Source: Calliopum simillimum (taxonomy: Eukaryota; Arthropoda; Insecta; Diptera; Lauxaniidae). From it: DNA of 64,000 nucleotides. The stretch lies in NCBI GenBank assembly GCA_951812925.1, contig OX638370.1, positions 117,318,897 to 117,382,896 on the forward strand, given 5' to 3'. How positions within the stretch are numbered: position 1 is the first letter of the stretch; each line of letters begins with the position of its first letter. Below the pieces are notes generated by a model. It saw nothing but the letters and a program-made list of their open reading frames with translations, made no database searches and had not been told where the DNA came from. Position numbers and translations under genes: made by a program. This document shows, piece by piece, positions 36,201-55,800 of the stretch.

Positions 36201-36303
36201 TTAATAATCATCGATTCAATTGAATTGAACTAAAGCAATAGCTACTTTTTTTTTGTATTTTTAATAAAAAAATTTCTAACTTTACTCTGCAAAAAAGTTA
36301 TAT

Positions 36304-36309
36304 TTTATT
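36304..36309 (-). terminator. Poly(A) signal of Eth
   Basis: AATAAA on the minus strand, about 133 nt past the Eth stop codon and the first canonical hexamer there. Confidence 0.6.
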
Positions 36310-36441
36310 CGTATTGAATAATACAAAGTGTCCAATATATAATACGACTAGAATAACTCATTTGATGAATTTAATATCAAACCCTTTAACATATTATATA
36401 TTCTGTGATTAAAAGTTATATAAAAACAACTGAAATATAAA

Positions 36442-37144
36442 TTATTTTCTTAAGTTATTGTAGTGCAACATCTCACGATCATATCTAGATGGATACATTT
36501 CATTTTCGGCTCTATTGTAAAAGACAAAGTCAGTATCATCATTATAATTTCCATATGACGACATTTGTTTGGTGAAACCTAAATCTTCCTTCAAACGTTG
36601 ATCTGGCATGCGTCCCAACGATATTACTTTGCCATACAAATCCACATCCATTTGTAACGCACGATCAAAGTCCTTCCAATGTACAAATTTAACATTTTCA
36701 CTTTTAATTGCGTCTTTTTCAATTAGCTCCATGAGTGTATTCACATTGACCGGTTGCACAACACTATACTCACGTTCGGCAGCTGCTGCAGCTGCCGCAG
36801 GATGCATTATAACACGTTTAACAGGTTGTGGAATCTCATTAAGCCAAGACATTAGGTTACCATTTGCATTGAGCTATATTATTAGAAAAAACAAATATTA
36901 TTAAATCAAGAACTAGTTTATCACTCATCATAAACATATAACCTACATTTTCATCACTTCTTCCGATACGCGGTATTTGCTTGGCATTTTTTAGAAAATA
37001 ACTCTCATATTCTTTATCAGATCTGCGTCCGAGTCGTGGCACATTTTTAGTTATTTTCAAAAAAAATCCAGGACTATCATTAGTTTTGCATGATAAGAAG
37101 AGTGTCGACAAAACAAGTAGAGTTGAGAAAAGACCGAAATGCAT
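36442..37144 (-). CDS. Eth: Ecdysis triggering hormone precursor
   Basis: Encodes the prohormone of the Inka-cell peptides that start the ecdysis behaviour sequence through the ETH receptor. The model has two exons: 37144-36947 (66 codons) and 36873-36442, joined by a 73-nt intron with donor GTAGGT and acceptor ATATAG in phase 0. The product is about 209 residues, close to the roughly 203 of Drosophila. Residues 1-20 are a signal peptide (MHFGLFSTLLVLSTLFLSCK). ETH1 ends in SPGFFLKITKNVPRL (residues 24-38) with the amidation and cleavage site GRR. ETH2, ending in FLKNAKQIPRI (50-60), follows with GR. Both carry the PRX-amide C terminus of the family. Exon 2 encodes the long acidic propeptide tail, including an eight-Ala run. 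The exon 2 open frame begins at an internal Met, but the acceptor lies seven codons upstream. It is the only neuropeptide precursor of known type in the window. Confidence 0.95.
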
Positions 37145-37239
37145 TTTATTTTAAATTTTAATGAACTGAAGAACTTAGGAACTTAAATTTCGAATGTCTC
37201 GTTCGTTAAGTTAAAGCTCATTTTCTTCTGGCTCAAAGT

Positions 37240-37275
37240 AAACTAACTTAATTCTCCGCAAAAGCCATTTTTATA
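37240..37275 (-). promoter_or_regulatory. Eth core promoter (TATA box and initiator)
   Basis: TATAAAAA reads on the minus strand at 37275-37268. An initiator-like TTAGTTT lies at 37246-37240 with its A (37244) 31 bases downstream of the first T of the box, the usual fly spacing. This predicts a 5' leader of about 100 nt. No hormone-receptor site was identified with confidence. Confidence 0.55.
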
Positions 37276-37299
37276 TCATAACAATTTCATCAAAATAGA

Positions 37300-38320
37300 A
37301 TGATCAACCTGCAGTTTTGGCAATTTAAACATATTGAGCTGAGCGCAGTTTTTTCTGGATGGTTTTTATCGCTTTAAAAACAGAGCAATTTCTGATAAAA
37401 TTTTCAACCCGCATGCAAATGCGCATAAATTGATACAATATGTATTAAAAAATTTGCATTATCGATTGATTTTTTTAATTTCAGACCATATGGAAGTTTT
37501 TTTTTACAAAGCTGGCTTGTGAAGAGTTTATTACCCTCTGAATCAACTATGCAGTATGAGAATAATTTTTTAACTAACCATCTAATGTTATTTTCCACTA
37601 TTTAGGTAAAAAATTTCTCAACTATTTAGTTAATTAGGGTTTTCCATAAAACATATGAATATCTAGAAAACCTCGTAAACTCGTAAGAGCTTTCAAAATA
37701 AATAAGAATTTCGACAATTTTACGAGTTATGAGTTATGAGTTAAGTTTGGAATATGAACATAATTCAAACCGCGAGAATTTGCGCATTTCGTAGTTTTCC
37801 ACAAACTAAATGTGGCCTCCATAAATCAGATTGTATAAATTTAAAATTGCTTTTGAACCTTGCTGAGTTCTTAGAATTTGTACGTCCTTTATTCCTTACG
37901 TTCGTAATATTTCTCGCTTCAAAACCAAATAGGATGTTCATCAAAATTTGATAGAAATCGGCTGTTCGTATTAAGGAAATTTCCGCACATTTTGAACACT
38001 ACTCAATCGATGCGGAAACTGCTAAAATAATGCGAAATGCAAATTTTCACTTTGACTGCGGAAAAGTACGAAGTGCGGAGTTTTCTGCGATTTGAATGAG
38101 TCCGCCTAATCTGCAGAAAATAAATGGATGCCACGAGTTGTCCTTACCTATTTTGAACCTTAGGGAAATTTTGGATAACCAAATTTGTGAGAAAAAATTT
38201 TGGGGGAAAAAAATTTATACTGGGGAAAATTTGAAGAGAAAAGATCTTACGTGTATCTAAACAGTATGACAATTATTAACAGTTGCGGTTACCTTCGAAA
38301 TTCACCATTTGCTCTTGAAT
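37300..38320. other. Eth upstream DNA, no gene recognised
   Basis: AT-rich and without repeats of the families above. The part nearest Eth probably includes its enhancer, but I see no specific binding-site cluster. The short ORF at 37754-37951 has no support. Confidence 0.4.
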
Positions 38321-38329
38321 TATTAGCTG

Positions 38330-39112
38330 TGTTCTTTTGAACACTTTATCTGGGCTTGTGTACTAGGCCAGATCATTCTCCATACAAAAAAAAAAAAGCT
38401 TATAAAAACCCCTCCTCATTTGGAAGAGTATATAGGAAAGAAAACATGTCTTTTATTTTACCCACTCTAAAGACAGCCCAACTGGTGTTTTTCCATAACT
38501 TCGGCAAATGATATCTGATGTTTTAAAATTATATATCGTTCTGAAGACCTTTATTAAGCCTACATTTTTTCCTCCTGTTTTAGGACCTACGAGGTCATAT
38601 TCGACTAGTACGTCCTACATTCTCTGGTTCGTTTTTCCCTAAATGTCCCTTTTTTTCTTTATAAATTTTAAGTCTCTGAAAATTCGGGTATCCTTAAAAC
38701 ATGTAAAAGCCTCGAAAGCATCGTCAACTCGTAAAACTATCAAAGTTCGTATTGATTTTGACAACTATTACGAGTTTTACCCAAAAAGTGCTGATTAAGG
38801 CCCAATTAAACCCATTTTAACGATGGGTATATAGCTTTTAAACATCGGACATCACTGGCCGAAGTATGGAAAAAAAGGAGATTTTGGAGTTTTTGCAGTG
38901 GTTCAAAGAATTCTTTGTTTGCTAGATACACTTAAAGTAAGATTTCAAATAGAGGGCGGTTTTTTAAATAATTTTTTCATCGACCTGTCCTATTGTGTAA
39001 GCACATTCTGACAAACGTATAGGTAAGCAACAACAAATGTGCTTAACTTAAGCCAGATAAATAAAAGTGCTTAAATCAAGCCCGGATAAAGTGTTCACAA
39101 GAACATCGCCGC
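38330..39112. mobile_element. DNA transposon remnant with TGAACACTTTATC ends
   Basis: TGTTCTTTTGAACACTTTAT (38331) and the inverted ATAAAGTGTTCACAAGAACA (39093-39112) form terminal inverted repeats of about 28 bp; the right one continues through a related AAGTGCTTAAATCAAGC. No ORF is present inside. A single end with TGAACACTTTATC also occurs at 63937-63949 near the window edge. Confidence 0.65.
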
Positions 39113-39182
39113 ATCAGTGAACAACTCACACACATGATTTTACGTCACGAATCGTACGTTCACTGATGCGGCGATACGATCC
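39105..39182. repeat. Long hairpin at the transposon's right edge
   Basis: ATCGCCGCATCAGTGAAC (39113-39123 region) pairs with GTTCACTGATGCGGCGAT at 39158-39176 around a spacer of about 36 bp. The near-perfect GC-rich stem stands out in AT-rich DNA and may be the inverted end of a second small element. Confidence 0.6.
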
Positions 39183-39492
39183 CAGTTTTGTTCCATCCAC
39201 ATCGATTAAACAACACAAAGCTCTTGACCATTTAGTCAATTAAAATTTTAAGATTACATTGCTTATATGGTCGTAAAACTTTTTTGGGGAAAATTTTCAA
39301 GATTCAAAAAAAAAAAAAAAAAAGAAAGTTCGAAATTTCAAAACGAAATAAATATTTTTCACAACGAAATTTCCCCCAAATTCTGGACTTTTGACAAAAT
39401 TTCCCCTAAATATGGAACATTTATATTTTTGTAACAAAACAAAAAAAAAAAATTTCCAAATTTCAAAATGAAGTGAATGTTGTTTCAATATA

Positions 39493-40362
39493 GGGTAAGG
39501 TAACCAGCTGTGGGCCGTCATCGGTTGTGGGCCACCCCTTGTATTTTTGACGTTTATAAAATATGACAGATCTGAGTATGAGGTTATGTGTATATTGACA
39601 ATAGACAGTATTAGTGCAAACACTGAAGTGAAAGGACGCATCTGATCCGCAGCTACAACAAAAGAAAAAAAATTGAAGAAATTTTCAATAAAGTAATCTC
39701 TGAAGATTTTGTGAGTGTGATAAAGCGAAGTGAAATATTGCAAAGAGGTGAGTGTTATGCATTTTTATGCAGTATTCGCGTTAAATTTTCCGATTTTATA
39801 TCGAGTTTGCTCAAAATTTTTCGCCACGAGAATTTTGCCAGTCACTTAAGAGATGGCTGCCGTTACCGGTCATGGGCCACCATGTTTTTTGCATGAAAAT
39901 TATTGCAAATCGTGTTTTTAACTTCCTTGTCAAGGTGTTTTATGCATTTTTATGCAATTTTAGTCATGTCTACCCCGAGAAAAAAAAGATGTACCAAATT
40001 GCGAATCCGATGAGGATGATTAATAATTTGAAAAAGTCACATTCTCTTGATGTTTTTTCGCCACTAGAGGCTTCATTGATAAATAAATTTTGATAATACA
40101 TATTTCTTTACTGGTTTTGCAATTGAAGTGGATTTTTCAGAGTGGCCCACAACCGGTTATAAAATTTTTTTTGTCCAAAAACAAGCTCTATACAAAATTT
40201 GTTAAAATAAATTTTTTGTTGAAAAATTATAGAAAAATTGTTTCTTTTTGGTTACCTACCGCCTCTAGCTTTCCATTGGTACCCACAAGTCCGAAAAATG
40301 TATACTTGAATGCAAGTTACGGGCAAAAAACGAAACCCGGCCCACAACCGGTTACCTTCCTC
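39493..40362. mobile_element. Non-autonomous transposon with GGTAACC...GTGGGCC termini and TA target site
   Basis: The termini GGGTAAGGTAACCAGCTGTG (39493) and, inverted, GAGGAAGGTAACCGGTTGTG (ending at 40362) agree over about 24 bp. TA lies directly outside both (39491-39492 and 40363-40364), as in Tc1/mariner-type insertions. Internal copies of the terminal word occur at about 39862 (GTTACCGGTCATGGGCCACC) and 40143 (GTGGCCCACAACCGGTTAT). This sub-terminal repetition may be transposase binding sites. The small ORFs inside (39711-40413) are not a recognisable transposase. It sits about 230 bp upstream of the ARL14EP-like start codon. Confidence 0.8.
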
Positions 40363-40589
40363 TATTTTATAAATATATATATTTTTGTTAACACGTACTG
40401 TAATGTAATTTGATATGTTTTAAAATAAGGTTTTCTTAACATTTACATAAAAGTATCCCCTAGATTGCCCCCTAGACCTTTTAAAATCCCCTAAATCTAG
40501 GAGAAAATCCCCTAAACTGGCAACACTGCCTGTCGCAAATTGAAATAGTGTTTCTCAAATAACTGCCTTTTTTTTTGTAAGCTGAAAAT

Positions 40590-40820
40590 ATGAATAAATG
40601 GCTTAATGTGAAGGACTTCCTCTTGGATGCTGCTCCAAGAATAACACGCAAAAGAAAATTGCAGCCACAGCCTGTCCAGACTGCCAGCGACGAATGTGAC
40701 TGCGAGCGTTTAAATTGTCCGGGATGCTGGTATCCATGTGAGAATTGCGGCTCCAACAAGTGTTCTCCATTCTGCCGAGTGGGGCGCAAGTATCCAATAG
40801 AATGGAAGGAATCAAATTAA
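40590..40820 (+). CDS. ARL14EP (ARF7EP_C)-like cysteine-rich protein
   Basis: A 76-residue single-exon protein. The C-terminal half has eight cysteines (36, 38, 43, 46, 50, 53, 58, 62) in the arrangement CDC-x4-CPGCWYPC-x2-CGSNKC-x3-C followed by GRKY. This is the hallmark of the ARF7EP_C domain found in ARL14 effector protein, a factor that in mammals links ARL14 to myosin 1E and is also found with chromatin regulators. The cysteine pattern suggests metal binding; that is inference. The N terminus is basic (RITRKRKLQ), which could serve nuclear targeting. Two AATAAA signals lie at 40864 and 40877. The gene converges on Orc4 with a gap of about 310 bp between stop codons. A transposon ends about 230 bp upstream of the ATG, so its promoter is very compact or partly transposon-derived. 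Confidence 0.85.
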   Translation: MNKWLNVKDFLLDAAPRITRKRKLQPQPVQTASDECDCERLNCPGCWYPCENCGSNKCSPFCRVGRKYPIEWKESN

Positions 40821-40863
40821 AAAAAATATGTAAATTAATTGAAATTAAATTTGTTTAACAAAA

Positions 40864-40882
40864 AATAAAAAACTGAAATAAA
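40864..40882 (+). terminator. Poly(A) signals of the ARL14EP-like gene
   Basis: Two overlapping-range AATAAA hexamers at 40864-40869 and 40877-40882, 44-57 nt past the stop codon. Confidence 0.6.
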
Positions 40883-41071
40883 AGAACATTACAAAGAAAA
40901 GAGATTAGAATTCGTAAAAGGTTAAAGTAAGGTAACGTTGAATTACCCATGGTTGGTAAACTTTCTTTCGATCGATATTAACAAACCTTAAAAGCGACAT
41001 ATTTTGAGTTATCCAACAAACAGTAGGGAAACATATTATGTAGATATTTTTGAAAAATTTCAATGTGAAAC

Positions 41072-41077
41072 TTTAAT
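41072..41077 (-). terminator. Possible Orc4 poly(A) signal (ATTAAA)
   Basis: ATTAAA on the minus strand, 57 nt beyond the Orc4 stop. It is the commonest variant hexamer; no AATAAA lies closer. Confidence 0.4.
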
Positions 41078-41133
41078 TAGCAATTACAAAATCATATTTT
41101 TTCTTATACTATAGATACAAAAACAGTCTCATG

Positions 41134-42633
41134 TTAAATAAGCGAACTCTGCGCCCACTGCGACACCTCAGTGGGAAGTGCCTGATATTTTTGCACTGCT
41201 TGATTTATTTGTTTTGAAGTCAGTGCCATTTTGTGCATTTCAAATTCTTTCTGCACCTTGCAAGCAGCCGTTGTTAGCGGCAGTATAAATTCGATGTTAC
41301 GCAAATGTTCGAAAGCCTTTAGCACCACAGCGCGTTCTATACCTTGCATAGTTGTCGAGACTTTAGCGAATTTCGCAAAGCGTGAAAAAATTATTTCAAA
41401 ATTGAAAGGATCTCGATCATAGATTTCAGAATGATGTTTAATTGCAATAATCAAACATAGTTCTAAAACTGAAAGTCCTGTAAGTAGCTCAATCTTATCA
41501 TCGATTTCATAAGTGGCAACCAAATGTGTAACATGTTCTGCGGTTAAATGCTTGCAGTTATCTTCATGTATTGTAGCTATCAAACGAAATAGAAACAGCT
41601 TAAAGATGGCTTCACTTACGTCAAAATCGTAAAGTGATTGTAGGGCTGCCTGCACTGATTTATCCGTAGAAAGCACTGTAATATGTTTATTCCATGAATC
41701 GCAAAATTTTTTACTAAATTTATACTTGGCAGGTTGAAAATGATTGCGATGAAACGTTAGTTCCGTATATTCTGGAACATTAATGGTTGCGATTCTTGTG
41801 CTAATCTCTTTCAATTCCTTGTCGTTTGGTATACTGAGAAGTTCGCGAAAAAGTTTCAGCCGCTCCGGGAAGTTATCTCCATTTGGAATTAGTAAAATTT
41901 GTCTGTAAAATATACGAAAAAGAATTAGCCCATATTTTCTGAAATTACTAACTACTCTTATATTGCTTACCGATGAGAAAAACGTGATTTGACCCGCTTC
42001 TCCAATAATTCAATCACATCCAAACGACAAGTAATACCAAGCACACAAATAGGTGCCTGTGCTGATTGTGATACATCAAAGAGATTATATAAAAGCGTTT
42101 GATTATGATGTGCACAAAATAAATCAAATTCTTCCAATATAAAAATTACGCTTTTTGATTTCTTTCCACCAGTCTTCAAGGATGCAAGTAAGAATGCCAA
42201 ATTTTCTGCGAATGAACCAAAAACTTTACCATCCACTGCATTCTCTAACTGCATCTGCACCGTCGCTGCCTTGAGCGCCAAACGATCATCTGTATGTAGG
42301 TTGCCATCGAGATGAACAATCAAAGCGTTTCGTTCGAATGCTTCATTGGGTAACAATTCGGACAGCACGGAGTTAACCAGCTGTAATTTTATTGGGAATT
42401 GTTATTATTTAAATTAATATGTATTTTATTTTGCATCTGACCGTTGTTTTTCCTACACCTCTTTGTCCAATAAGCAGCAATGAATTTGATTCACCCAATT
42501 CTCCTGTGCGTTGCAACAGATCCCGAACATTTTGGCGCTCTGTTTCGTGGCCCCGGAATGTTGTGTAGTCGCGCTGCAGTCGTTCTTTGAGAAATCGTCG
42601 CACTTGGATGGTTTCTGTAAGTTCCACCGGCAT
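41134..42633 (-). CDS. Orc4: Origin recognition complex subunit 4
   Basis: Subunit of the six-protein ORC that marks replication origins and loads MCM helicases. Exons: 42633-42442, 42380-41971 and 41902-41134, with introns of 61 and 68 nt (donors GTCAGA and GTAAGC, acceptors TTACAG and TTACAG). The product is 456 residues, against about 459 in Drosophila. It begins with an N-terminal helix and then the AAA+ ATPase core: Walker [10 protein letters not shown] (56-64, split by intron 1 right after the last Thr), the conserved [11 protein letters not shown] segment (about 86-96), Walker [10 protein letters not shown] (142-150), sensor 1 GITCRLD (179-185) and the arginine-finger segment [10 protein letters not shown] (192-201), where intron 2 falls. 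Exon 3 carries the lid and winged-helix region. The first ATG opens exon 1 close to the domain start. No in-frame break is seen. The donor of intron 1 (GTCAGA) is weaker than consensus. Confidence 0.96.
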
Positions 42634-42833
42634 TTTTTTGTATTATTTATGTCAATTTTAATTCAAAACTTCGTTTTAAACAATGTACCAAATAAACAAA
42701 ACGAGTGACAGCTAACGAAAGTTGATAGAAAGTCAGTGCGTTGTAGCGGCATTATTGTTAAGTAGGACACACACGAGTGCGAACGGAAGACCAAATAGTT
42801 GGGCGATAGTTTTATTCTCCATTGCGGCAAATA
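42634..42833. other. Orc4 upstream region
   Basis: About 200 bp between the Orc4 ATG and the next MITE. No TATA box is evident, which fits a housekeeping gene. No specific core motif could be named. Confidence 0.4.
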
Positions 42834-43231
42834 AAGGGCCGTTCACACGTACAGTCTTACTTGCGCTAACCTAGTTCGTGAAAATAGAGAGTTTGCGCAT
42901 ACTTTTTTTATCGCAACCACATGACACAGGCAGAATACTTCATTTTCATAGCAACATGACGTCTAGCAAACATTTTATTTTTATCTGAATTGTTTTTTTT
43001 TTGCATGTGTTCCAATATAGATTAACGAAAAAATTCATAATTTCATGACAGAACTATCTCATTCGATATAAATACATTTGAAGTGTGAAAATTAAGCGAT
43101 AGATTGAAGGCATGGCTTATGTGCTGTTCACACATTATAACTTATCTCTGTCTACACGTACAGACTTACCTACACAAATCGGATTGCGCAGGTAAGTCTT
43201 GAGGTAAAACTGTACGCATGGACGGCTCTTA
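42834..43231. mobile_element. MITE with GTACAGTCTTAC arms, about 400 bp
   Basis: Left GGGCCGTTCACACGTACAGT then CTTACTTGCGC. Right, inverted, GCGCAGGTAAGTCTTGAGGT, ACTGTACGCATGGACGGC. The imperfect terminal repeats are about 45 bp. A further internal copy (TCTACACGTACAGACTTACC) at 43151 makes the right end double. No ORF. Confidence 0.7.
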
Positions 43232-43301
43232 AGAGTGTGCACATTTGTGTTGAGTAGACTATTGATTATGTGTTAAAAAACATGCCAAAAAAGAACTAAA
43301 G

Positions 43302-43414
43302 CCCGTTTCGCCTAGAAATTTATGAAGTGATTTATTCGTAACTCACCTCATTCTTTATGTATTGAAAGTCAAATAAATCTGAAATCACCTCATAAATCTC
43401 GAGTCGAAACAGGG
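43302..43414. mobile_element. Small MITE, about 113 bp
   Basis: Ends CCCGTTTCGCCTAGAAATTT and, inverted, AAATCTCGAGTCGAAACAGG, with inner words ATGAAGTGATTT and AAATCACCTCAT also inverted. Almost the entire element is a hairpin. A diverged relative may lie at 53070-53215. Confidence 0.6.
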
Positions 43415-43776
43415 TATAAGACGTTTACAGGTTTTTATTACAAAAATCGGTAAATTGGTCATATAAGAAAAAACCGCGGAGTTCTATTAAATAAGAGGGT
43501 GGAAATCGGAAAAGGGGGTAATTCACCCTTTAAAGTTTTTCAATATATCTAGTGCAGCAAAATTTCGATATTTTTTCTTGAAAACTTTTTTGTAGAGAAT
43601 TATTATCCCAACTTACAGCTATGGAAAAAGAAATAGCATGATTGAGTTTATTAAAAAAAAAAAAAAAATTAAGGGCTACTCCCGAGGGGGGTTAAAACGG
43701 GAAATATACCCTTACCTGCTGCCCTATCTTTTAAAAGAAACTATCGTCCGAATTTAAGTACACTGTTATAGCCGTA
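43415..43776. other. Non-coding DNA, nothing recognised
   Basis: AT-rich with an A run at 43652-43668. No gene or clear repeat. Confidence 0.4.
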
Positions 43777-44270
43777 GAGCCAGCGCTTAACAACAACTTT
43801 GCGTTTCTAAAAGCTGGTTTTGTTACAGTTGGTTATAGTAATTGTGTACACCAATAAACTGTCGATCAGTCAAGCGAACTGTAGAACAGGTGGCTGATAT
43901 ATGGTCTCAAACATGCGATTCTAAGCATTTTATGCCATGTTCAGTTTTTTCGTAAGATGCCTACCTCTTGAGTAAAAAAAGCGTTTTGCCTTTCAAGGGG
44001 CTGCTGACCAGCCTTGTTCTAACGTTTAACTGACTTACCGACAAAATTGTTTTTTATATGCATCATACAATCTGTATAGCAATTTTCAGCCATTAGAAAT
44101 TAATTTGATCAAAATCAAAATTATGACATGTTTGAGACCATATACTTATCAGCCACCTGTTCTACAGTTCGCTTGACTGACCGACAGATTATTGATGTAC
44201 ACAATTACTATAGCCAACTGTAACAAAACCAGCTTTTAGAAACGCAAAGTTGTTTTTAAGCGCTGGCTCT
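43777..44270. mobile_element. MITE with GAGCCAGCGCTTAA ends, about 490 bp
   Basis: The left arm GAGCCAGCGCTTAACAACAA, AAAGCTGGTTTTGTTACAGT, GAACTGTAGAACAGGTGGCT, GGTCTCAAACATG is mirrored by the right arm CATGTTTGAGACCATA, AGCCACCTGTTCTACAGTTC, ACTGTAACAAAACCAGCTTT, TTAAGCGCTGGCTC. The arms are about 155 bp. TA lies next to the left end (43775-43776) and close to the right end (44271-44272), consistent with a TA target. No ORF. Confidence 0.8.
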
Positions 44271-44543
44271 TAGACTATTAGACACAAACCAAATCTAAAG
44301 TTTCTCAAGGACACAAAACAATTTCTGTAATTCAAAATGGGGGTTTTCGTGAATAAATATTCCAAGGGAATTTTCTCAGACTGCCATGCCTTCTCTATTG
44401 CAGTTTTAGAAAATTCCCCGGGAATCTTGAATCACGATAACCCCCAATATTACACATACCTCTCTCTCACAATATGTAAAAGATTACTAAATTGCAAAAT
44501 GAATGCCACAATATCCAACAACCCAACCTGATTCGAAATATTT
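44271..44543. other. Non-coding DNA, nothing recognised
   Basis: The short plus ORF at 44337-44531 has no domain or splice support. Confidence 0.4.
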
Positions 44544-44623
44544 CGATTATGTCTCGAAGTGAAATAGAGTTCGAGACTGGTGATAAAACCAGTGGTCTTG
44601 AGTTCAATTCTCAAAATAGGCGA
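44544..44623 (+). other. tRNA-like sequence (degenerate), with poly-T stop
   Basis: A cloverleaf can nearly be drawn: acceptor CGATTAT against ATAGGCG (one mismatch, one wobble), a D-like stem CTCGAA/TTCGAG, an anticodon-like stem ACTGG/CCAGT with an eight-base loop, and a perfect T arm TTGAG-TTCAATT-CTCAA. It is followed by A and a T run (44624 onward), as at pol III genes. The loop is one base too long and the A box is poor, so I call it tRNA-derived and not a functional tRNA gene. Confidence 0.45.
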
Positions 44624-44659
44624 TTTTTTTTATAAATTACATATTTTTTAAAATTGTTT

Positions 44660-44722
44660 CAAGCGTTCGCTTTCCATGAAAAGGAACCGGGTTCGATTCC
44701 CGGCATGTATAAGTTTTTTTTC
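44660..44722 (+). other. Second tRNA-like 3' half with poly-T stop
   Basis: Perfect T arm CCGGG-TTCGATT-CCCGG, preceded by an anticodon-like hairpin TTCC-ATGAAAA-GGAA and followed by CATGTATAAG and a run of eight T. Its 5' half is replaced by AT-rich DNA. It lies about 100 bp after the previous module in the same orientation. Confidence 0.45.
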
Positions 44723-44882
44723 TTACAAAACTTTTTTACTGTTGTTTTACTATCATCTTAAGATGCAGTGCAATGAACTCATGTGTTATGTTATATGTAT
44801 GAGGAATAAATGCATTTTGTTTTAAAGGAGTGTTGCAATTTGATAACGATTGGCATATTAACAAGAAAAAATACTTACTCGT

Positions 44883-45046
44883 TAGGGGCTGTCCATAAAC
44901 TCCGTGACGCTCCTAGGGGCGGGGGGGGGGTTCGAGCAAGCGTCACGCTTGGTGTATTTTATTTATTTTTTATATGAAACTACCGACACATAGGGGGGGT
45001 TCAATATAGCGAATTTTAGCGTCACGGAGTTTATGGACAGCCCCTA
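44883..45046. mobile_element. Small hAT-type MITE, 164 bp
   Basis: Terminal inverted repeats TAGGGGCTGTCCATAAACTC and GAGTTTATGGACAGCCCCTA are identical over at least 20 bp and extend through CGTGACGCT. TAGGGGCTGTCC-type ends with subterminal GTGACGC are typical of hAT-derived MITEs. An 8-bp target duplication is not evident in the flanks. No ORF. A G run sits at 44920-44930. Confidence 0.85.
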
Positions 45047-45430
45047 AGGAAGAAGGAAGATTTTTATTTTAATTTTATTATTCAGTAAATATACGAACAA
45101 AATATTGGCATTGGCGGTACTGATCCGGTGTGTACCTTAAAATAAGAATAATTATTAAAGTTTCACACGATTGTAGGAGTATAAGGCGTAGTAATTTAAA
45201 ATTTTGACTGAGAACTGCCTAGATGAGGAAAAAAACCCTTACAAAAAAAATAAAAAAATAAAATAGAAAATCAGACAAAGGTCTGCCATTCCCGCAAAGA
45301 GATATTGCAACGAAATTATTAATTTTAATTAATTTTTTTTTTTTTTAATTGAACTTTTAGTCATTGCATTTTCAATGCATTTTCTAACACATAGTTATGA
45401 CAGATCAAGGAATGGATTAAAAACACGGCT

Positions 45431-45477
45431 ATAGTGACATATGTTTCGTCTTTCGGCGCAAAGACTCATCAGACTAT
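45431..45477 (-). ncRNA. Hammerhead self-cleaving ribozyme, type I with minimal stem III
   Basis: All conserved core parts are present on the minus strand: CTGATGA (45472-45466), stem II GTCTTT/AAAGAC (45465-45460 with 45453-45448) closed by loop GCGCCG, GAAA (45447-45444), a two-pair stem III CATATG (45443-45438), then T and C giving the cleavage triplet GTC. Stem I is ATAGT (45477-45473) pairing with ACTAT (45435-45431). Cleavage is predicted between 45436 and 45435. The G-C pair opening stem II and the A-U pair at the base of stem III match the consensus. Hammerheads with such short stem III are known from Penelope-like and other small retroelements. No core mutation is seen, so activity is plausible but not shown. 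Confidence 0.85.
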
Positions 45478-45560
45478 TTTTGTTGTAATTGTAGTTATAT
45501 TTGTTTTACTAAATTAATTATAATTGAAAAATTGCATGGTGAAAAACTTTTTGTGTTTAG

Positions 45561-45636
45561 GCCTGGGCGGGAGTTGAACCAGGGGCCTCCCGGTTGGTAG
45601 CACAAGTCGTTAACCAATGCACCAGCCTTGCCCGGC
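45561..45636 (-). other. tRNA-like sequence with pol III A and B boxes
   Basis: On the minus strand an A box TGGTGCATTGG (45624-45614) and a B box GGTTCAACTCC (45580-45570) match consensus and are separated by 33 bp, as in tRNA genes. The flanks GCCGGGC and GCCCAGGC resemble a partly paired acceptor stem, but the T stem no longer pairs, so it is a tRNA-derived promoter and not a tRNA. A T5 run at 45546-45542 could stop transcription before the ribozyme. Confidence 0.6.
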
Positions 45637-45756
45637 TGGGAAGCCGACTTAATGTTTTTAATCCGTTCCTTAACATGTCATAATTATGTGTTAGAAAATG
45701 CATTGATAGATTTTATGTAAATTGATCTTTGCAATGACTAAAAGTTCAATTAAAAA

Positions 45757-46790
45757 TGAATTTTCCATTATTTTTTTTATAGTAATATTTTTGGCGGTTG
45801 TCGAGATATTTTATTGAAAAGAAGAAACTTTCCACTGTTTATGCTTCGTTTTTATTAAAATATTACAGTCTCATTTTTAAATACCCACATATATTTATTT
45901 TTACACAAATTTTCAAACGTGACTCACGTCATTACACGTTAATTATTAGCCATACAAATTAGGGATCCATTAGGAACCATAAAAATTGATGGGTTTTTTG
46001 GAATTCCCGCCGTATTTAGTTGCAAAAAAAAAAAAAAATATAAAAACTTTATTCAAATGAAAATAAACGACCGACATCATGAAAGTTCTTTATTCGACTT
46101 TGTCTTCTTTACAGATTAACTTAACTAATAAATTATAAATGCAAAAAGCCAAGAAAAAACACAAAAAAAAAAAAAAATTAAGAAAAGAAAAAACAAATTA
46201 TTAAAAACAACTTTTTAAGCTGCCTCTTGCAAAACAGCTTTTGACAAAAGAATTAAAAAAAAAAATGATTGAAATCGGTTTTTCTTGATTTTATTTTAAA
46301 TACGAAAAATAAACCTGCTTAAAATTTGCGACACAAATTTAAATTTCTCTTGGCATTTTCTTACCATTCTTAACATCTTCTAATAGTTTTTTTTTGTATG
46401 AAAGATTTTTGTTTAATTCACAGGCCTAGTATTTTGAGGAGCGGTATGTTATTCTATCATGAGTACAAAAATTATTAATTTTATATTAAAATTGTGACGT
46501 TAGGGAATAACGCCCAAGAATAAAAACGCAATTATTACGATACATTTTTATAAATAAATTTTGGCGAAAATCATTTTGAAAACAACGCCTATAGTTGGGG
46601 CTTTGTTTCGTTTTTTTTGGCGTTATTTTGTTAAAAAAAAATAAAAAAAATAAATGACATCTAAAATAATAACCAAATAACGCTCAAAAAATTTGAAATA
46701 GATCCCAAAAACAAAAACAAAAACAAAATAAAGCCCAAAATATTTTCACATAAATTTGGGCGATTATCATTTTGGAAATAACGCCCAAAA
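45757..46790. other. AT-rich non-coding DNA with ATAACGCCC direct repeats
   Basis: GGGAATAACGCCCAA at 46502 and GGAAATAACGCCCAA at 46775, with ATCATTTTG(A/G)AAA between, form a pair about 270 bp apart and bracket an A-rich segment. A-rich tracts lie at 46025-46038 and 46163-46177. No gene. Confidence 0.4.
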
Positions 46791-46799
46791 TTTATTTAT

Positions 46800-48590
46800 A
46801 TGAAAATATATTTTAACTTCATCCTTCACTTCTTCTTCAATGAAAATTTCTTTCCACGAAGTTTTTTTTTTTCAAGCTTGGGAATAGGTGATATTTGCTG
46901 CGTGCCAGATCAGAACTTTAAGGTTGGTGAGCCAAAACATCGAAGCCTACCTTCTGCAGAGCAGCCATCGCAACTCGTCTCTTGTGAACAGTCGCGTTCT
47001 CGTTCGGCAGGAGAACACCTTTGGTCAATTTTCCCCTTCTTTTTTCTCTGACGGCTTCGTTGAACTTCTTGAAGATTAAAGCTTAGTATTTTTCGGTTAT
47101 GAAGACACCTTTTATCTTTGTAATCGATCCCTTCACAGTCCTAAAAGAGTGTCGCCATGATTTTCACAGCCGACTGTGACAGCTTAAACTTTTTATTTGG
47201 TGATGTGCCTCTTTGTGCCACACACGCCTGTTTGGACTCAGGTTTATAATGACAAGCCCGAGATTCGTCCCCAGCAATAATTCGAACAAATACTCTATCT
47301 CTGTCCTCACTACAGAAGTCCAAAAATTGGGGAGAATTCTTCACGCTCAATTTTTTTGAGGCTTCGTGAGCATTCTCGGCACCCATCTTAGACTGACTTT
47401 AGTCATACTAAGATTACACAGGTTTACAAAAAAAAATGTCATGGCGTTTTGACCAGACTATATGTTTCCTAGGGACTTTGACGTCCTGAATCTGAGTCCG
47501 GGGTCCGTTTTTTTCCAGAATGTCTGAGAAAAAAGATTTCAAGGTCATATGGAGGTCAAAATGGTCATATGTCGTTTAGTGATAAATTCGCTAAAATTCT
47601 AAAACTAATTTTATATCATTGAATTCTTAGTCCTTAAAAAGATTATGTTATCAAAAAGGGTCTTTCGTATCTAGTTTCGGAGATATAGCCATAGGAAGAT
47701 CCGGATATATCTTCTATGAAAACCGCTATAAGTTGGGAACCACTGAATGGATTTGAAAAATATTGGTGTCATATGAAAGGTATTTTGTTGTTGTTGTTGA
47801 TGTATTTGTTGTTGTTATTGAAAATTTCAAAAAACGTCATATCTCCAAAACTATGAATCCAATTGAAAATATGCGCATATAAAACATTTTTATAGGCGGT
47901 CAGAATACCTTTCATATGACACCAATATTTTTTAAATCCATCTAGTGGTTCCGAACTTATAGCGGTTTTCATAGAAGATATATCCAGATCTTCCGATGGC
48001 TATGTCTCCGAAACTAAGTTCGAAAGACCCTTTTTGATCACATAATCTTTTTAAGGGCTAAGAATTCAATGATAAAAAATTAGTTTCAGAATTTTAGCGA
48101 GTTTATCACTAAACGACACATGAACCCCATTTTGACCTCCATATGACCTTGAAATCTTTTTTCTCAGACGTTCTGGAAAAAAAACAGACCCCGGATTCGG
48201 ATTCAGGACGTCAAAGTCCCTAGGAAACACATAGTCTAGTCAAAACGCCATGACATTTTTTTTTTGTAAACCTGTGTTATCGTCAAGAATTTAAAAAATG
48301 TATCTGATACTCCAACCATTTCTGTGAGCTTTGTTTTCTTTAGTCGGACATCTTTCAATATTAATTTTTCTACTTTTTAAATGATTTTTGGAATGGTCAC
48401 CTCGATCGGCCTGCCTGGCCGTGCTCTTCTACAAGTGAATCGCTGCCTTGGGCAAAGAGATTATGCCACTTGTAAACCATAGTTTTACTCGGACAAGAGT
48501 TCCCGTAAACGTATGATGTCTTTTCCAATATAGTCTGAACTGATTTCCCTTGCTTTATAACAGCGCTTATGCTCCATATTTGTTGCATAT
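46800..48590 (-). pseudogene. Mariner transposase pseudogene, split by an insertion
   Basis: Minus-strand fragments give the mariner order. N-terminal DNA-binding part: 48588-48397, with GNSCPSKTMVYKWHNLF. Central part: 47386-47141, with FVRIIAGDESRACHYKPESK, where IxGDES holds the first catalytic Asp. C-terminal part: about 47050-46800, with VLLPNENATVH, then SSDLARSKYHLFPSLKK. The second catalytic Asp is replaced in NENA and stops and shifts break the frame, so no active enzyme is possible. The DNA between the first two parts is a separate palindromic element (47417-48276). Copies with catalytic spacing of this kind belong to the Tc1/mariner superfamily. Confidence 0.85.
47417..48276. mobile_element. 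Palindromic element inserted in the mariner copy, TTA target
   Basis: Ends CACAGGTTTACAAAAAAAAA and, inverted, TTTTTTTTTGTAAACCTGTG. The arms of about 400 bp mirror GTCATGGCGTTTTGAC, TTTCCTAGGGACTTTGACGT, TCAAGGTCATATGGAGGTCA and others. TTA flanks both ends (47414-47416 and 48277-48279), a 3-bp duplication like that of PIF/Harbinger-type elements. The centre has a GTT/GTTATT-rich spacer near 47790-47820. No ORF. It postdates the mariner insertion. Confidence 0.85.
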
Positions 48591-48599
48591 TTCAGATTT

Positions 48600-50120
48600 T
48601 ATTTGGCATTGACTTGTTTGGTCGACAATAGCTCAAAGACCAATGACCCGAATAATGCATTGAAAAGTGCATTAGAATAGCAGGAGAATATTTTAAAAAG
48701 AAAAAATAAATTTGTATTTTTATTTCCACTCCTTAAACTCCAATATGCGGACTTAAAAATTCCCACTCGTCTGAATTAATTAAAACACCGCTCGCAACAT
48801 CTACTTTTAATTTACAATGTCTACAGTTGATGGTGTTATTTTTCTTTAATATGGCGCCAGAGGGACAAATGAACCGTATCATATCGTATTTCAAATGTTT
48901 TGGATCGATTCAATCAATTTGCTGGAGCATCAGTTTTTGTTTCTTTGAAATATTTTACAAATTAACATAATTTTATTTATGGCGCTAGAAATTAATTTTA
49001 CATTTTTTCACTTTGTTCTTTAGTCGGGGGAATTCTCAATAAAAAAAAAAAAAAATAGAAAGAAATATGCTGATCGTAAAGAACAATAATTAATTTTTTA
49101 TTTCGCTATTCTAGTCCAATGATTCGAAAGGTTATTAGCGTTGGACAAGAACAAAAGGCAACGAAAAAAACAAACAGATCCGGTTGAATATTATTTTTCC
49201 AATAAAACCAAAACATACTTACGTAGTAAAACTTTTTATTTATGGACGAACTGTTATAGAATTTTGCTATAGATTTGTTTAATTTTGTGAATATTCTTCG
49301 ATGTTGTATTATTTTGTATATAGGCTTAAAAGTGGAAACACCTATCTCCCAATTTACAATACAGTTTTGCAGGTTCAAAAATTCGTCACTAAGTTAAATT
49401 TGAGTCTTAATAATTTCACACCCATTAATTTTTATCTAAAATCTAAATGCATATTTTAGATATATGTATCCATCTTTCTATAGAAAAGCAGAAAACATTT
49501 AATTTAAACCCAGAAGCTTAAACAAGAAAACATATAATCTCTTTTTCTTTTTTTTTTAGAATATTCGGAAAGATGCCCCGTAACATATCTACTACTTCTG
49601 AAATGAAGGTCGCTTTTCCTGTGGAGCATCAGAAAGTTTTTAATTATTTTTATTGAAAGTTGAATTCATAAGTTAATTTACCAATTTACTTACTTTGCAG
49701 TAGAGTCAAAAAAAGAAAAATCACCAAAATTAAGTTAATCAGAAGCCTAAAAACCAAATTACAAACAAACATCACCACAATTGATAAGCGCAATCAAGAA
49801 ATGCTTAACTAAGGTCTAGGTGAAGTAAAACCACTTTCTGTACAAATGTATAAACTTGACTTTGGATATTGCAGCAGCGCTCTAACTAACCAGGTAACAA
49901 CTACCAACATACTCGTACACCAATGTGCATTTGCAATTATGCGTTTTGTGATTTTTCTTCATCTTCTTCTTCTATTTTCTGTTACTGTAAATCCAGTTTT
50001 ATTTTCCCACTGATTCTTTCAGATAGCCACAATTGATTTTCTACACTGAAAGCCTCTTTTTTTGTGAATTTTAAAGCTACCAAATACTCAATGTGCTCTT
50101 TGTGAGAAGATGTGGTCGCA
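48600..50120. other. Mostly non-coding DNA, one exon-like stretch
   Basis: AT-rich. Apart from the exon-like segment at 49560-49656, nothing recognisable. Confidence 0.4.
49560..49656 (+). other. Exon-like segment after a strong acceptor, unidentified
   Basis: A 20-base pyrimidine tract ending in TTTTTAG precedes a frame open through MPRNISTTSEMKVAFPVEHQ, with ATG at 49573 and TGA at 49654-49656. The first bases (ATA TTC GGA AAG) are also open. It could be a terminal exon, a small ORF, or chance; I recognise no family and found no partner exon. Confidence 0.2.
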
Positions 50121-50129
50121 CAGTCATAC

Positions 50130-50460
50130 TTTGAAAACAAAATGTGTACATATTTCTATGATAGAAAAACCAAAGGTGTAAACTTGGTAAGGGAATTTTA
50201 TAGCCCCAGCTACAATTTTTATAGTCCCATTGTCTTGAAACTCGTCAAGAATAACTAAGAAAATTAGCTTTTTTGGATTCCATGCGAACGACATTGCTGA
50301 CCGTCCTGCCCAGAAGGGTGTCTTTAATATATTAACTGGACCTGAAGATTTAATTAAAACCAAATTAAAGATAAATCGATTAACCTTACTTTGGCTAAAT
50401 ACTTTGAACCTTAGAAAAACGCAGCTCCTCTTACAACAAAACAAATTGGACACTTCAAGC
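50130..50460 (+). pseudogene. Possible relic of a LINE RNase H domain
   Basis: One plus frame reads NDIADRPAQKGVFNILTGPE around 50287-50345, resembling the GNEIADxLAKxG...GPE motif at the end of RNase H domains of R1/Jockey-type retrotransposons. The preceding bases fit GIPG only with a shift. It is short and degraded; chance similarity is possible. Confidence 0.35.
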
Positions 50461-50930
50461 TACTTGAGCATTTCAATCAAATGAATCTCCACAGACATGA
50501 AGTCACAACTCTGTCTAAATTCAGATAGCTTTCGCTCAGATCTTCCACTTACTGTTCTCAGTGTCTGAGTGAAATTTGGTTGGACTAACTCAAAAAACAC
50601 TTTCAATACAGCATTTTGGATCTTTTGCTTGTATGGGAAGCGCCACGCTCCCTTATTCGAGAATACGCATCATAATTTTTACACCACTCGCGTAGTCAAA
50701 AAATTAAAGTAATCAACACTAAATTTCAAACATAAATTACCTTACGTATGAACTATTTGATGGGTTCGTAAAGTAATATTTACAAATAAAATGTAGTTAA
50801 ATAATAAAAAATATTTACTTCAAATTCCCTACATTTAACTTTATGTAGAGTAAATTATACTTAAAAATTTATAATTCTAGTAAAAATAATTTTATTTTTT
50901 TCACGCACAAAAATGAGTGTCATAATATTT

Positions 50931-51202
50931 ACTCCACTCGGGTAAGGTAAATATCACAAAAATATATAATCATTTGGACTTTTATAATTTTATGTAGTAA
51001 CAATTTCTATTTTTAGACAGACATTTCATATACAAATTTTATACCTCTACATCATATGCGCCAGTAGCGCAGGAGGATCTATCTATAACACGGAGGGGCC
51101 AGGGTTCGTAAATAACACGTAAATTTTTTTAAACAAATTACTAGCAAATATAAATTTTGAATTGACTAAAACAGTAAGGTGAAATTTACTTCAGTGGGGA
51201 GT
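50931..51202. mobile_element. Small TIR-like element with a tRNA-like interior
   Basis: ACTCCACTCGGGTAAGGTAA at the left and, inverted, TTTACTTCAGTGGGGAGT at the right give imperfect ends of about 20-25 bp. Inside, plus strand 51058-51110, an A-box-like TAGCGCAGGAGG and a B-box-like GGTTCGTAAAT are spaced about as in tRNA genes. No ORF. Confidence 0.45.
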
Positions 51203-51209
51203 TGTAACT

Positions 51210-51900
51210 AGTCTGACTTGAAGTTCTGGTAAAATTTAAGAGAAATAAAGTAGCAAAATCTTTTTTTTTTTCGTGCACTAACAGTGAGCTTTTGCAATTT
51301 TTGCATATATCGGAGATGCCACTCCCTTTTGTCCGATTTCGTCTAGTTTTTGTTCAGAACTTGCGCTGACCGTCCCTAGTATTTATGTGTATTTTGGTTG
51401 CATTGTCGTGAAAAATACTCCTAAAGTTGCATACTGAATATATATACTTATATATACCAAATAACTCAAAACTAGAAAAAACTGACTAAGTGCTTTTCAC
51501 TTGTATAGGGGCGATATATACCCTTCCATACCTGCCACGCTTGCTTCCCGCGTTACAAGTGGAAGACAAAGTCCATATACCCTGAGTGTAGAGTATCAAC
51601 ATATCTTTTCACAATAGCCACAAGAAAAATCCACGAGCTCGTTAGCCAAAATACTGAAAAATTAGACATTAGTTAAACCCTTGTTACCATTTTAGTAAAT
51701 TAATGACTGTGAATTCGGGCCTTACAGGTTCAAAATTTTGTTAAAGATTAACATGCAACATCTGGTCAAATTTCAATCTCATTTGCGCACACTGCCTTTA
51801 AAGCCCGGCTTTTGATGAGCGCACACATATTGAGTGAGAGCAGAGATGAGCCACATCTGGTTGGACTGAGTGTAATTTCGTTACAAGTGCGTATGTATTT
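51210..51900. other. Upstream DNA of the 52.7-kb gene
   Basis: Intergenic, with AT-rich and mixed composition. GAG/GCG-rich words at 51810-51860 may be regulatory, but no site can be named. Confidence 0.35.
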
Positions 51901-51922
51901 GTGTGACTGAGGAGCGGTTGCG

Positions 51923-51960
51923 TATAAAACAGAAGCGTCTACTCTGGATGAATTTCATTT
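51923..51960 (+). promoter_or_regulatory. Core promoter of the secreted-protein gene
   Basis: TATAAAAC at 51923-51930, with an initiator-like TCATTT at 51955-51960 (A at 51957, 34 bases downstream). It predicts a 5' leader of about 760 nt before the ATG at 52720, unless an intron lies within the leader. Confidence 0.45.
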
Positions 51961-52719
51961 GAAGTCAAATCTTTAAGTGCTACAGTGCAGAGCTAACAAA
52001 AAGCTGGGTTTTTTTTAACGCAAAAAGATAAAGAAGAAATAGAAATAATAGCGAATTTCTCTTTTCTACTCGAACAAAAAAGTGTCTGCGTGTGTGTTAC
52101 AATTTTTAAGTCGAGTTATTGAAAACTGGCGACAAATAATTTTGAGAAAACTTTAAAAAATATTGTTAACTTTTTTAAAACATTAAAGAAACTATATTTC
52201 CGGAATAAATTTCCAGCAAAAAGTCAAATTTTAAGCTTTTCGTGCACTTGTGCAATATACTAATTAAATTCAATAGATACTTTTTAGTATCTTTGAGATA
52301 CGAAGTGAAGATACATAGCTGTAAGCTAATGAAAAAACAGTAAAAATAGAAAAGTACCAATAAAACATAGTTTTAACATAAAAAAGAAAGTTTTGAAGTG
52401 AAATTTTTAAAAAACAAAACAAAAAATTCCGTAACTTTTAAATTACATATTATACAACAACAACAGCAACGTTGCAGTAGACACCCTTTTTTGCGGTTTT
52501 CATAATTACACGCGTAAAAACGTGTTAACCTGCCTTAAAATATTTAAAATTTTTTTTGTTTTTGTGCTGCCACATTTTTTTGTTAACTTTAATTTTGTTT
52601 TGATTTGTTTTTGTGGTAAACACGTTGCCCCTTCTACCTTTTTTATTGTACATTATTCCACTGCTAAAGGTATTTAACCCCGCCCCCCTCTTCCCTTCAA
52701 CTGGAAAAAATAAAACACC

Positions 52720-52833
52720 ATGACAGCGGTCAAAGCGAAAGTAATTGCAACATCACTCATCTTGGCCGTCTCATTGCAATTGTGTTGCGGCTCAGCGATA
52801 CCAATTTGGGAATTTTTAACACGTAACGAAAAG
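52720..52833 (+). CDS. First coding exon of an unidentified secreted protein
   Basis: ATG in good fly context (AACACC before it) opens 38 codons ending in GAA AAG followed by a near-perfect donor GTGAGT, phase 0. The peptide is a classical signal sequence: basic start (TAVKAKV), hydrophobic core IATSLILAVSLQL, and small residues before a likely cut after GSA. The predicted mature start is IPIWEFLTRNEK. This looks like the start of a neuropeptide precursor or other small secreted protein, but I do not recognise the family. No second exon was found in the remaining 11 kb, so the following DNA is probably a long intron. The promoter and 5' leader lie directly upstream. Confidence 0.75.
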
Positions 52834-54350
52834 GTGAGTTTCTGTTTTTCTTTTTTTTAATGTATTTTATCTGTATCTTTTGCTGTTGTTATCTTTTTGT
52901 CACTAAATCAAGAAATTTAAATTATTTAATCAAAACAAGTTGATATGCACCTAAATAATTCCAATTTTTATGTGTAAGGTTTTTTAAAGATGGTTGGAGA
53001 TGGTGTTTTCAGCCGAGATTAATTGATGAAGTTTAAATATTGTATGTGTATTATAAAGTTTTTCCCTAAAACTACGTTTCCAACGGTGATTTGTGAGGTG
53101 ATTTACGGCTTTTGCGAGATTTAGCTCTAAGTCTCGCTGTAAATTACGTTAAACATAAAAAAATAAATTTACTTCTGACGAGATTTATTTTAAATCTTGA
53201 CATAAACCTCAATAGGGCTACCGATTTAGGTTTGTTCTGCCTAAGTGGCACCCCTTAACTCTGACAGCTGACCCTGCTTAGAAATCATTAGGAAACCAGT
53301 AATTTTAAAAATAATAACTAAATAAAAGAATTGCTCTGACTTTCATGGTCGTGGGCTCTTCAGAAACTTATTATTTCACCAGATGGCGCTTCAAAAATCA
53401 TTTAATGCCTAGAAATGGATTTTCAAAATATTTTCTAAAGTTTTCATCATTTATCGTCCTTGAGATGAAATTCTTTGCAGAATATTTAAGTGGAATGCTT
53501 TAACCCATCGTTGTCCAGTTTTTTTTTAAAACGGGGTTAAAAAGACCCATAAAACGAAAAAAGTGTAGATGGCTAAAAATGCTTAGAATTGTTCATAGAA
53601 TACGAGTGAATTTTTTCAAAATTTTTTTTATTTTTTCAAAAAAAATTTATCAAATTGTGTTTTCAGCTGTTAAGCTCACGTTTGTCAGCAACATGCTAGG
53701 TTTACTTAAAACCGAGGCATTTACGAAAAAATTTCATGCAACGTAAAATGCTTAAAATCCGTCAAAGAATTGGTGAGAATTTTTTCAGAATTTTTTTTTA
53801 TTTTTTGACTATATTTTGAATTCGATAAAATAAGTAGATCGAAAAACTCTGAAAAAATTCACACGTATTTTTTGGCATTTGGCATTTTTTGCCGCATACA
53901 TTTTTTTCTTTAGATCGTTTTTCCGACCTCTTTATTGAAAAACATAAAAAATTTGATTTTTGGGACCGAATATTATATATACCCAAAAAAAAAGTTTTTA
54001 AACGCCAAAATTTTTGTAAGCACATAATCTTTGTTTCTAAAGCACTCCTTAGTATCCATTGGTTTTCTCAGAATGAAAAAAAAAAAAATAAATAAAAAAT
54101 GATGCAGAAATCGTTTTTAAGAGTCCTTCTAACTTTTGAGTTGGTTTCGAGATGAATCTAAATTTCCACCCGGTCTAATATAATATATAATAAAGTATCC
54201 AGTCCAGCGTTAGAGACGCAACGTTTCTTGAAATGTTTTTCCTTGGTTACCCAGTGTTCCAAACGGATAAAGAGCGGAGATATGAAGATATTAAAATGGT
54301 TAAAATTTTCTCTTCCATTCGCTAATGTTTTTACTTAAATTTTTTGTAAT
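52834..54350. other. Putative first intron, transposon-poor part
   Basis: AT-rich. A degenerate inverted-repeat segment at 53070-53215 (GTGATTTGTGAGGTGATTTA at its left) resembles the small MITE at 43.3 kb. A near-tandem pair at 53580-53800 shares AAATGCTTA(A/G)AA(T/A)T and GTGA(A/G)AATTTTTTC. No exon found. Confidence 0.4.
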
Positions 54351-54358
54351 ATGTTCAT

Positions 54359-55792
54359 TAGCTATGGGCTTAATAACAATTTTTCGATTTTTATACCCTG
54401 CGGTGGTTTTTTATGTGAGGTTTGATGAAAAAGTAAGTGAGCCAAAATTTGGACGGGGTGGGGTGGGTCTAACCCTTGCCGGTTTTGAGTCAAAGTTCGA
54501 ATTTCGGGGGTAAAATTTTGAAAAAAGCTTCTAACTGCAAACCAGTTATACTTACAGGCATAGAATGTATGACCAACCCCCATTATATTTTCTACTCCAA
54601 CATTTTCACCAAACATACTTACCCCCTATCTCTACCCCTAAGGGTCGCTCCCATATAAGTCTTCATTTTCATGACATTTTTATAAAATCGACCTCCACCA
54701 CCCCCAGGCTGCCCCTACATTGTTCGAAAGTATGACCTACCCCCATTATTTTTTCCACCCCATCATTTTCAGGAAACATACTTACCCCCTATCTCCACCC
54801 CATAGGGGTGCTCCCATACAAAAATACTCATATTTATGTTAATTAATAAACATTTTTTCTCTCATCAACCCTGCCCCCATAGTGCTACTTAGGAAGGTAA
54901 AATGTATGACCGACCCCTATTAGTTTTTCCAGCTCGACAATTTTACAAAACAAACTTGCCCTCTATCTCCGCCCTTTAGGGGTGCTCTCATACAAAAGCG
55001 GTCCGGGGTGCGACTTTATACTGGTGTACTAATATTGCTTCTGTTACAAAAATTAATTGCCACAGTTACAGTGGTTTTGAATTAAAAAAAAAAAACGCGT
55101 ATCACGTATGACGGAAACGAGCAGTTACTGGGTGTGCCGATCGTACCATCTGGTAAAAATAAAGGACGGAGATAGAGGGCAAGTTTGTTTAGTAAAATTG
55201 TCGGGCTGGAAAATTTAATGGGGTCGGTCATACATTTTACCTTCCTAAGTAGCAATATGAGGGAAGTAGGGGTGATGAGAGCAAAAATGTTTATTAATTA
55301 ACATAAATATGAGTATTTTTGTATGGGAGCACCCCTAGGGGGTGGAGATAGGGGGTAAGTATGTTTCGTGAAAATGATGGGGTGGAAAAAATAATGGGGG
55401 TAAGTCATACTTTTGAACAATATAGGGGCAGCCTGGGGGTGGTGGAGGTCGATTTTATAAAAATGTCATGAAAATTAAGGCTTATATGGGAGCGACCCTT
55501 AGGGGTAGAGATAGGGGGTAAGTATGTTTGGTGAAAATGTTGGGGTAGAAAATATAATGGGGGTTGGTCATACATTCTATGCCTGTAAGTATAACTGGTT
55601 TGCAGTTAGAAGGTTTTTTCAAAATTTTACCCCCGAAATTCGAACTTTGACTCAAAACCGGCAAGGGTTAGACCCACCCCACCCCCTCCAAATTTTGGCT
55701 CACTTACTTTTTCATCAAACGTCACATAAAAAACCACCGCAGGGTATAAAAAGTTAATTTTTAAACTGTCCATACAAACTAGCCCATAGCTA
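54359..55792. mobile_element. hAT-like palindromic element, 1434 bp, with perfect 8-bp target duplication
   Basis: ATGTTCAT lies immediately outside both ends (54351-54358 and 55793-55800). The termini are TAGCTATGGGCT and AGCCCATAGCTA. The arms, each about 650-700 bp, are inverted copies (for example TACCCTGCGGTGGTTTTTTA against TAAAAAACCACCGCAGGGTA). They also contain GGGGTAAGTATG and GGGTAGAGATAGGGG-type sub-repeats that recur two or three times per arm. An 8-bp duplication fits hAT or P-type enzymes. No transposase ORF, so it is non-autonomous; the mirror ORFs are by-products. Confidence 0.9.
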
Positions 55793-55800
55793 ATGTTCAT

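Follow-up and report, generated by a model that had tools for sequence, protein, structure and literature searches.

The window that we analysed, a 64,000-nucleotide stretch of contig OX638370.1 (assembly GCA_951812925.1) of the lauxaniid fly Calliopum simillimum, carries a complete type I hammerhead ribozyme motif on its minus strand (45477-45431), and the motif lies inside a 415 bp non-coding element with inverted repeats at both ends (45342-45756). The ORC4 coding region occupies 41137-42633 of the minus strand in three exons, which leave only 3 residues of the Drosophila miranda protein uncovered and were mapped using proteins over 300 aa among the matches listed; D. miranda provides the best named relative (71% identity over 66% of the query), and closer matches reach up to 89%. 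A placement of the ribozyme in an ORC4 coding intron is rejected, since 2.7 kb separate the element from the coding exons (42633-41137); an intron of the ORC4 untranslated leader could still contain it. Elsewhere in the window, a long LINE open reading frame on the plus strand (5120-8227; 1,034 aa from its ATG) gives endonuclease, reverse transcriptase and DUF6451 matches, and a satellite array with a 134-bp unit (17648-21522; 29.3 copies by TRF) is accompanied by an inverted partial copy at 22119-22243. Minus-strand frames at 36442-37150, which contain SPGFFLKITKNVPRLGR and KNAKQIPRIGR and give no Pfam match, presumably resemble an ecdysis-triggering hormone precursor.

Direct reading of the sequence establishes that every part of the hammerhead is present. 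On the minus strand, the motif consists of the 5' side of stem I (ATAGT, 45477-45473), the core segment CTGATGA (45472-45466), the 5' strand of stem II (GTCTTT, 45465-45460), the loop of stem II (GCGCCG, 45459-45454), the 3' strand of stem II (AAAGAC, 45453-45448), the core GAA (45447-45445), a palindromic stem III (ACATATGT, 45437-45444), the cleavage base C (45436) and the 3' side of stem I (ACTAT, 45435-45431). All pairs are Watson-Crick, with 5 bp in stem I and 6 bp in stem II, the first pair of stem II is G-C, and both stems adjoin the core. The core residues C3-A9 and G12-A14, the A15.1-U16.1 pair and H17 all agree with the requirements printed in PMC3088659, and the hammerhead ends open in stem I, as a type I hammerhead does. 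The predicted cut falls between 45436 and 45435, with the bases verified in the sequence. A stem descriptor with free loop lengths, applied to both strands of the window, matched only this site (45431-45477). An earlier note on this DNA had claimed that every conserved hammerhead part is in place, with a 6-bp stem II opening with G-C and a 5-bp stem I at the cut, and the sequence bears this out. Its two-pair stem III stands as far as pairing within one molecule is concerned, but is better read as an A-U and a C-G pair closing an ATAT loop within an 8-nt palindrome, a form that the earlier note had missed.

The sequence ACATATGT is its own reverse complement over all 8 nt; that is, it can form 2 pairs and a 4-nt loop within one molecule, or 8 pairs between two. 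The RF00163 consensus likewise has an 8-nt palindromic stem III (ACGcgCGU), and stem III is defined here by the sequence, by alignment to RF00163 and by a two-strand fold. In the predicted two-molecule fold, the hammerhead takes a double-hammerhead form, a shape that follows from the palindrome in stem III. The dimer energy was considered as proof of dimer action and rejected, 303 of 500 shuffles gaining as much. Palindromic stem III sequences occur in repeat-type hammerheads, including those of Aedes, for which the cited part of PMC3088659 treats the dimer as hypothetical; there, an Aedes repeat hammerhead tested as a monomer gave no cleavage under the assay used. According to section 8 of PMC7761336, the weak helix III of many type I hammerheads blocks cutting by the monomer but not by the dimer. 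Because only 2 pairs of stem III are available within one molecule, cutting in a single RNA is probably weak here, and would be better in a dimer paired through the palindrome.

Covariance models, the check that the earlier note had proposed, place the match correctly but leave it below every curated cut-off. At gathering thresholds, Rfam gave 0 matches over the whole window. In a permissive Rfam scan of a 59-nt stretch, the type I family RF00163 aligned end to end at exactly 45431-45477, with a score of 21.5 bits against a cut-off of 34 and an E-value of 0.0014 (59-nt query, 4,227 families), which by our arithmetic scales by length to ~1.5 for the window over all 4,227 families; in a permissive scan of a 651-nt stretch, RF00008 reached 25.4 bits against a cut-off of 48.5. 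Since these scores fall below the Rfam cut-offs, we treat the type I hammerhead as a candidate and do not file it as a family member.

The chance control comprised 4,775 dinucleotide shuffles of the window, scanned with the same loose descriptor and graded by the minimum number of pairs in stems I/II/III. The shuffles gave 866 matches at the level of at least 3/3/2, 140 at 4/4/2, 41 at 5/4/2 and 2 at 5/6/2, the last being the level of the observed hammerhead, which corresponds under the loose descriptor to a chance of ~4e-4 per window. Compact-loop estimates from the window's own base frequencies are 2.6e-5 per window with G-U pairs and 1.0e-6 per window with Watson-Crick pairs only. The earlier statement that chance occurrence is very unlikely therefore holds for one window, by the shuffles and by the compact estimate, but no longer applies when windows are scanned in the thousands. 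We conclude that a chance origin is unlikely in one window, and that the motif alone is insufficient if thousands of windows are scanned. According to the hypothesis of chance, an ordinary element of the MITE or foldback class acquired the hammerhead sequence in its loop by accident, and the motif never cut; the Rfam scores under cut-off agree with this hypothesis, and the 2 matches of equal quality that the loose descriptor gave in 4,775 shuffles imply that some are to be expected when thousands of windows are scanned. Against it, the all-Watson-Crick form with compact loops is much rarer, and the motif coincides with a palindromic stem III, a palindromic 8-mer following GAAA at just 14 of the 1,205 GAAA sites in the window. 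We regard chance as unlikely, though as an account to be taken seriously.

The inverted repeats of the element, with arms of 84 nt on the left and 104 nt on the right, confirm that the hammerhead lies in a TIR element. The outer block of the left TIR (45342-45368, plus strand; 27 nt) is 100% complementary to the outer block of the right TIR (45730-45756, minus strand), and the inner block of the left TIR (45372-45425, plus strand; 54 nt) is 91% complementary to the inner block of the right TIR (45653-45706, minus strand). The measured arms correct the element length from the 416 bp first given to 415 bp, and the description of the element as lacking an ORF is justified: the longest stop-to-stop frame overlapping the element has 60 aa. 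Having TIRs, short length and no coding frame, the element has the properties of a MITE or foldback element. At both ends, TTAA stands next to TTGAAC and is a possible target site, but as evidence for a target site it proves nothing, because TTAA is part of the symmetric ends; a search for target-site duplications outside the TIR ends found only A/T-rich runs, none of them convincing. A plus-strand T run at 45333-45346 becomes, on the hammerhead strand, an A run that follows the element. Among six elements in the interval examined, 36000-56000, three neighbours have longer inverted repeats (43768-44278, 47412-48281 and 54388-55752). The last of these is a 1,365-bp element with inverted repeats of 485 nt at 97%, and the second is an 870-bp near-palindrome beside minus-strand frames (46910-48281) that look, on inspection by eye, like a mariner transposase; a Pfam scan of 3 frames gave no match. 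Beside the hammerhead element, at 44874-45055, lies a 182-bp element with 38-nt inverted repeats at 92%.

Upstream of the hammerhead, on the same strand, a G+C-rich stretch contains a B box and an A box at tRNA spacing, which the earlier note had also missed. The B-box-like sequence GGTTCAACTCC (45570-45580, minus strand) has 0 mismatches to the consensus, and the A-box-like sequence TGGTGCATTGG(T) (45613-45624, minus strand), with its start 44 nt upstream of that of the B box, has 2 mismatches to the consensus. Between the B box and the hammerhead are two minus-strand T5 runs (45542-45546 and 45527-45531; span 45527-45546), and a T5 run is the expected stop signal of Pol III. In 460 shuffles, a perfect B box with a 2-mismatch A box occurred 2 times at exactly that grade, and A/B pairs with at most 2 mismatches in total occurred 17 times. 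A real tRNA gene is rejected, in that ARAGORN reported 0 genes and Rfam no tRNA match, and a tRNA fold was not found. On its sequence, the A/B-box segment appears tRNA-like and is perhaps the head of a SINE; it is at present probably not the promoter from which the ribozyme is transcribed, Pol III being predicted to stop at the T5 runs before the hammerhead. On the plus strand at 44560-44710, two stretches resembling T arms, GAGTTCAATTCTC and CCGGGTTCGATTCCCGG, suggest by eye tRNA-derived debris.

Searches for further copies found the element once. In one self-comparison of the window, the matches other than the TIRs themselves were at E 1.5 or worse, giving no second copy; another self-comparison gave one further match, a 33-nt AT-rich stretch at 23248-23278 (E 5e-4). 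No copy was found in viral contigs (5 scans), prokaryote genome contigs (1 scan) or plasmid records, collections that are poor in insect DNA, and two chance reading frames of the element yielded no second copy in a protein collection. Absence from viral, prokaryote, plasmid and protein collections says little, because insect repeats are not expected there; the lack of known copies nonetheless counts on the side of chance. In the window, the element is a single unit and not a tandem array of the 150-450 bp units that characterise retrozymes.

The same features bear on two retroelement hypotheses. According to the first, the locus is a single-unit retrozyme or hammerhead-SINE retroposon that moves by reverse transcription, and the apparent TIRs are the sides of a self-paired RNA rod. 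Its size, low G+C content and strongly self-paired RNA are like those of animal retrozymes as presented in the cited parts of PMC7229834, and the A/B boxes and the A run after the element are both found on the hammerhead strand, but the element is not tandem, its arms, with 27 nt at 100%, are far more regular than those of a viroid-like rod, the T5 runs come early, and target-site duplication does not rise above A/T-rich chance matches. We consider this hypothesis rather unlikely. To our knowledge, a tRNA-like head is not a feature of Penelope-like elements, and the second hypothesis, that the locus is a Penelope-like relic in which a pseudo-LTR piece with a minimal hammerhead is accompanied by an inverted end, appears to us highly improbable. 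Self-comparison of the window showed no tandem pseudo-LTR, and among the 9 larger ORF products scanned there is no GIY-YIG and the sole reverse transcriptase is that of the LINE ORF 37 kb away. In favour of this hypothesis is the conservation of minimal type I hammerheads in Penelope-like elements described in section 8 of PMC7761336 and in PMC11167929.

The predicted fold of the full minus-strand element has an energy of -152 kcal/mol, equalled by 0 of 100 shuffles (z -14); this strength is due to the TIRs. In the centroid of this fold, hammerhead stems I and II stand directly on the TIR helix. One hypothesis for such an arrangement is that a TIR family of transposase type has its own hammerhead beside the TIR helix and cuts its full-length transcript internally, so that the ribozyme would be used by a DNA transposon, a proposal that we hold to be distinctly unlikely. 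The lowest pair probability in stem I is 0.51 in the full element, 0.51 without any TIR and 0.67 in a short piece, and 0.17 and 0.21 with the left TIR but without the right. A role of TIR pairing as a ribozyme switch is not supported, stem I having the same value with full TIRs and with none; at most, in these models, the right TIR would undo the disturbance of stem I that comes from the left TIR. The strict open-core form has a probability of at most 0.012 in 9 of 9 sequence contexts, and the open-core probability is 0.009 vs. a mean of 0.003 with 30 shuffled right TIRs. Hammerhead pieces folded alone do no better than shuffles (z -0.17 and z 0.61, the minimum-energy structure of the latter being without stem I). 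A possible outer stem I, recognised by eye and interrupted by an internal loop, is rejected, its duplex energy being matched by 1,327 to 1,621 of 2,000 shuffles at each of 4 flank lengths. With no outer stem I beyond shuffle level, nothing points to the loop-loop contact that fast hammerheads make, a result that again favours chance, although minimal hammerheads also occur without contact between loop I and loop II (PMC7761336, section 8).

Taking these results together, we assign a probability of roughly one half to the reading that a retroposon-like hammerhead segment, captured or native, resides in a non-autonomous element with long TIRs, and that the ribozyme is still able to cut, best as a dimer. 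According to this proposal, which is drawn from sequence features, the carrier would be a non-coding element of the MITE/foldback class, and its internal cargo would comprise a tRNA-like A/B-box head followed by a weak type I hammerhead whose stem III is palindromic. In RNA of the minus strand, pairing of the inverted repeats would produce a long handle; the hammerhead would form at the loop end of this handle and would cut once, between 45436 and 45435. The upstream product, comprising the right TIR, the tRNA-like head and the ribozyme, would carry a 2',3'-cyclic phosphate at its end, the left-TIR product would start with a 5'-hydroxyl, and the TIR helix would hold the two products together until it is unwound. 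Cutting would be more effective when two copies pair via the 8-nt palindrome than in a single RNA. The likely original job of the ribozyme, inherited from the captured retroposon, would have been to trim or monomerise its own transcript. If copies of the element keep the ribozyme, self-cleaving RNAs would also ride, or be used, in elements of transposase type, and a short insect repeat would offer a simple setting for asking what genomic hammerheads do.

Dispersed minimal type I hammerheads are known in animal non-coding DNA (PMC7761336, section 8), and the animal hammerheads in the cited parts of this literature are tied to retroelements and satellite repeats. The repeat-associated type I hammerheads of Aedes aegypti (Perreault et al., 2011; PMC3088659) are likewise dipteran, lie in interspersed repeats and have a palindromic stem III that permits dimers; they differ in occurring in multiple copies, vs. 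the one seen here, and in that the cited part of that paper describes no TIR or tRNA-like part. The Schistosoma elements SMalpha and Sjalpha (via PMC8490949) are likewise short and SINE-like with a type I hammerhead, for which the title of a paper cited there states activity, but they form repetitive satellite-like DNA and are described there without long TIRs. The metazoan non-LTR retrozymes, in the cited parts of PMC7229834, share a type I hammerhead, a short non-coding unit of low G+C content and a strongly self-paired RNA, but are tandem repeats that yield RNA circles, in contrast to a single unit between long TIRs. The minimal hammerheads of Penelope-like elements and Terminons (PMC7761336, section 8; PMC11167929) share the very short stem III and possible action as dimers, but in the cited sections sit in reverse-transcriptase elements with pseudo-LTRs, none of which are seen here. 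MER6 (PMC6887750), a MITE with a SINE body, provides a precedent for a DNA transposon that carries SINE-derived cargo; it differs in being from vertebrates and in having a V-SINE body without a tRNA head, and the cited part mentions no ribozyme. Among the matches listed in the open-licence literature, no title or opening of an abstract named a hammerhead carried by a TIR element; as evidence of absence, this is weak.
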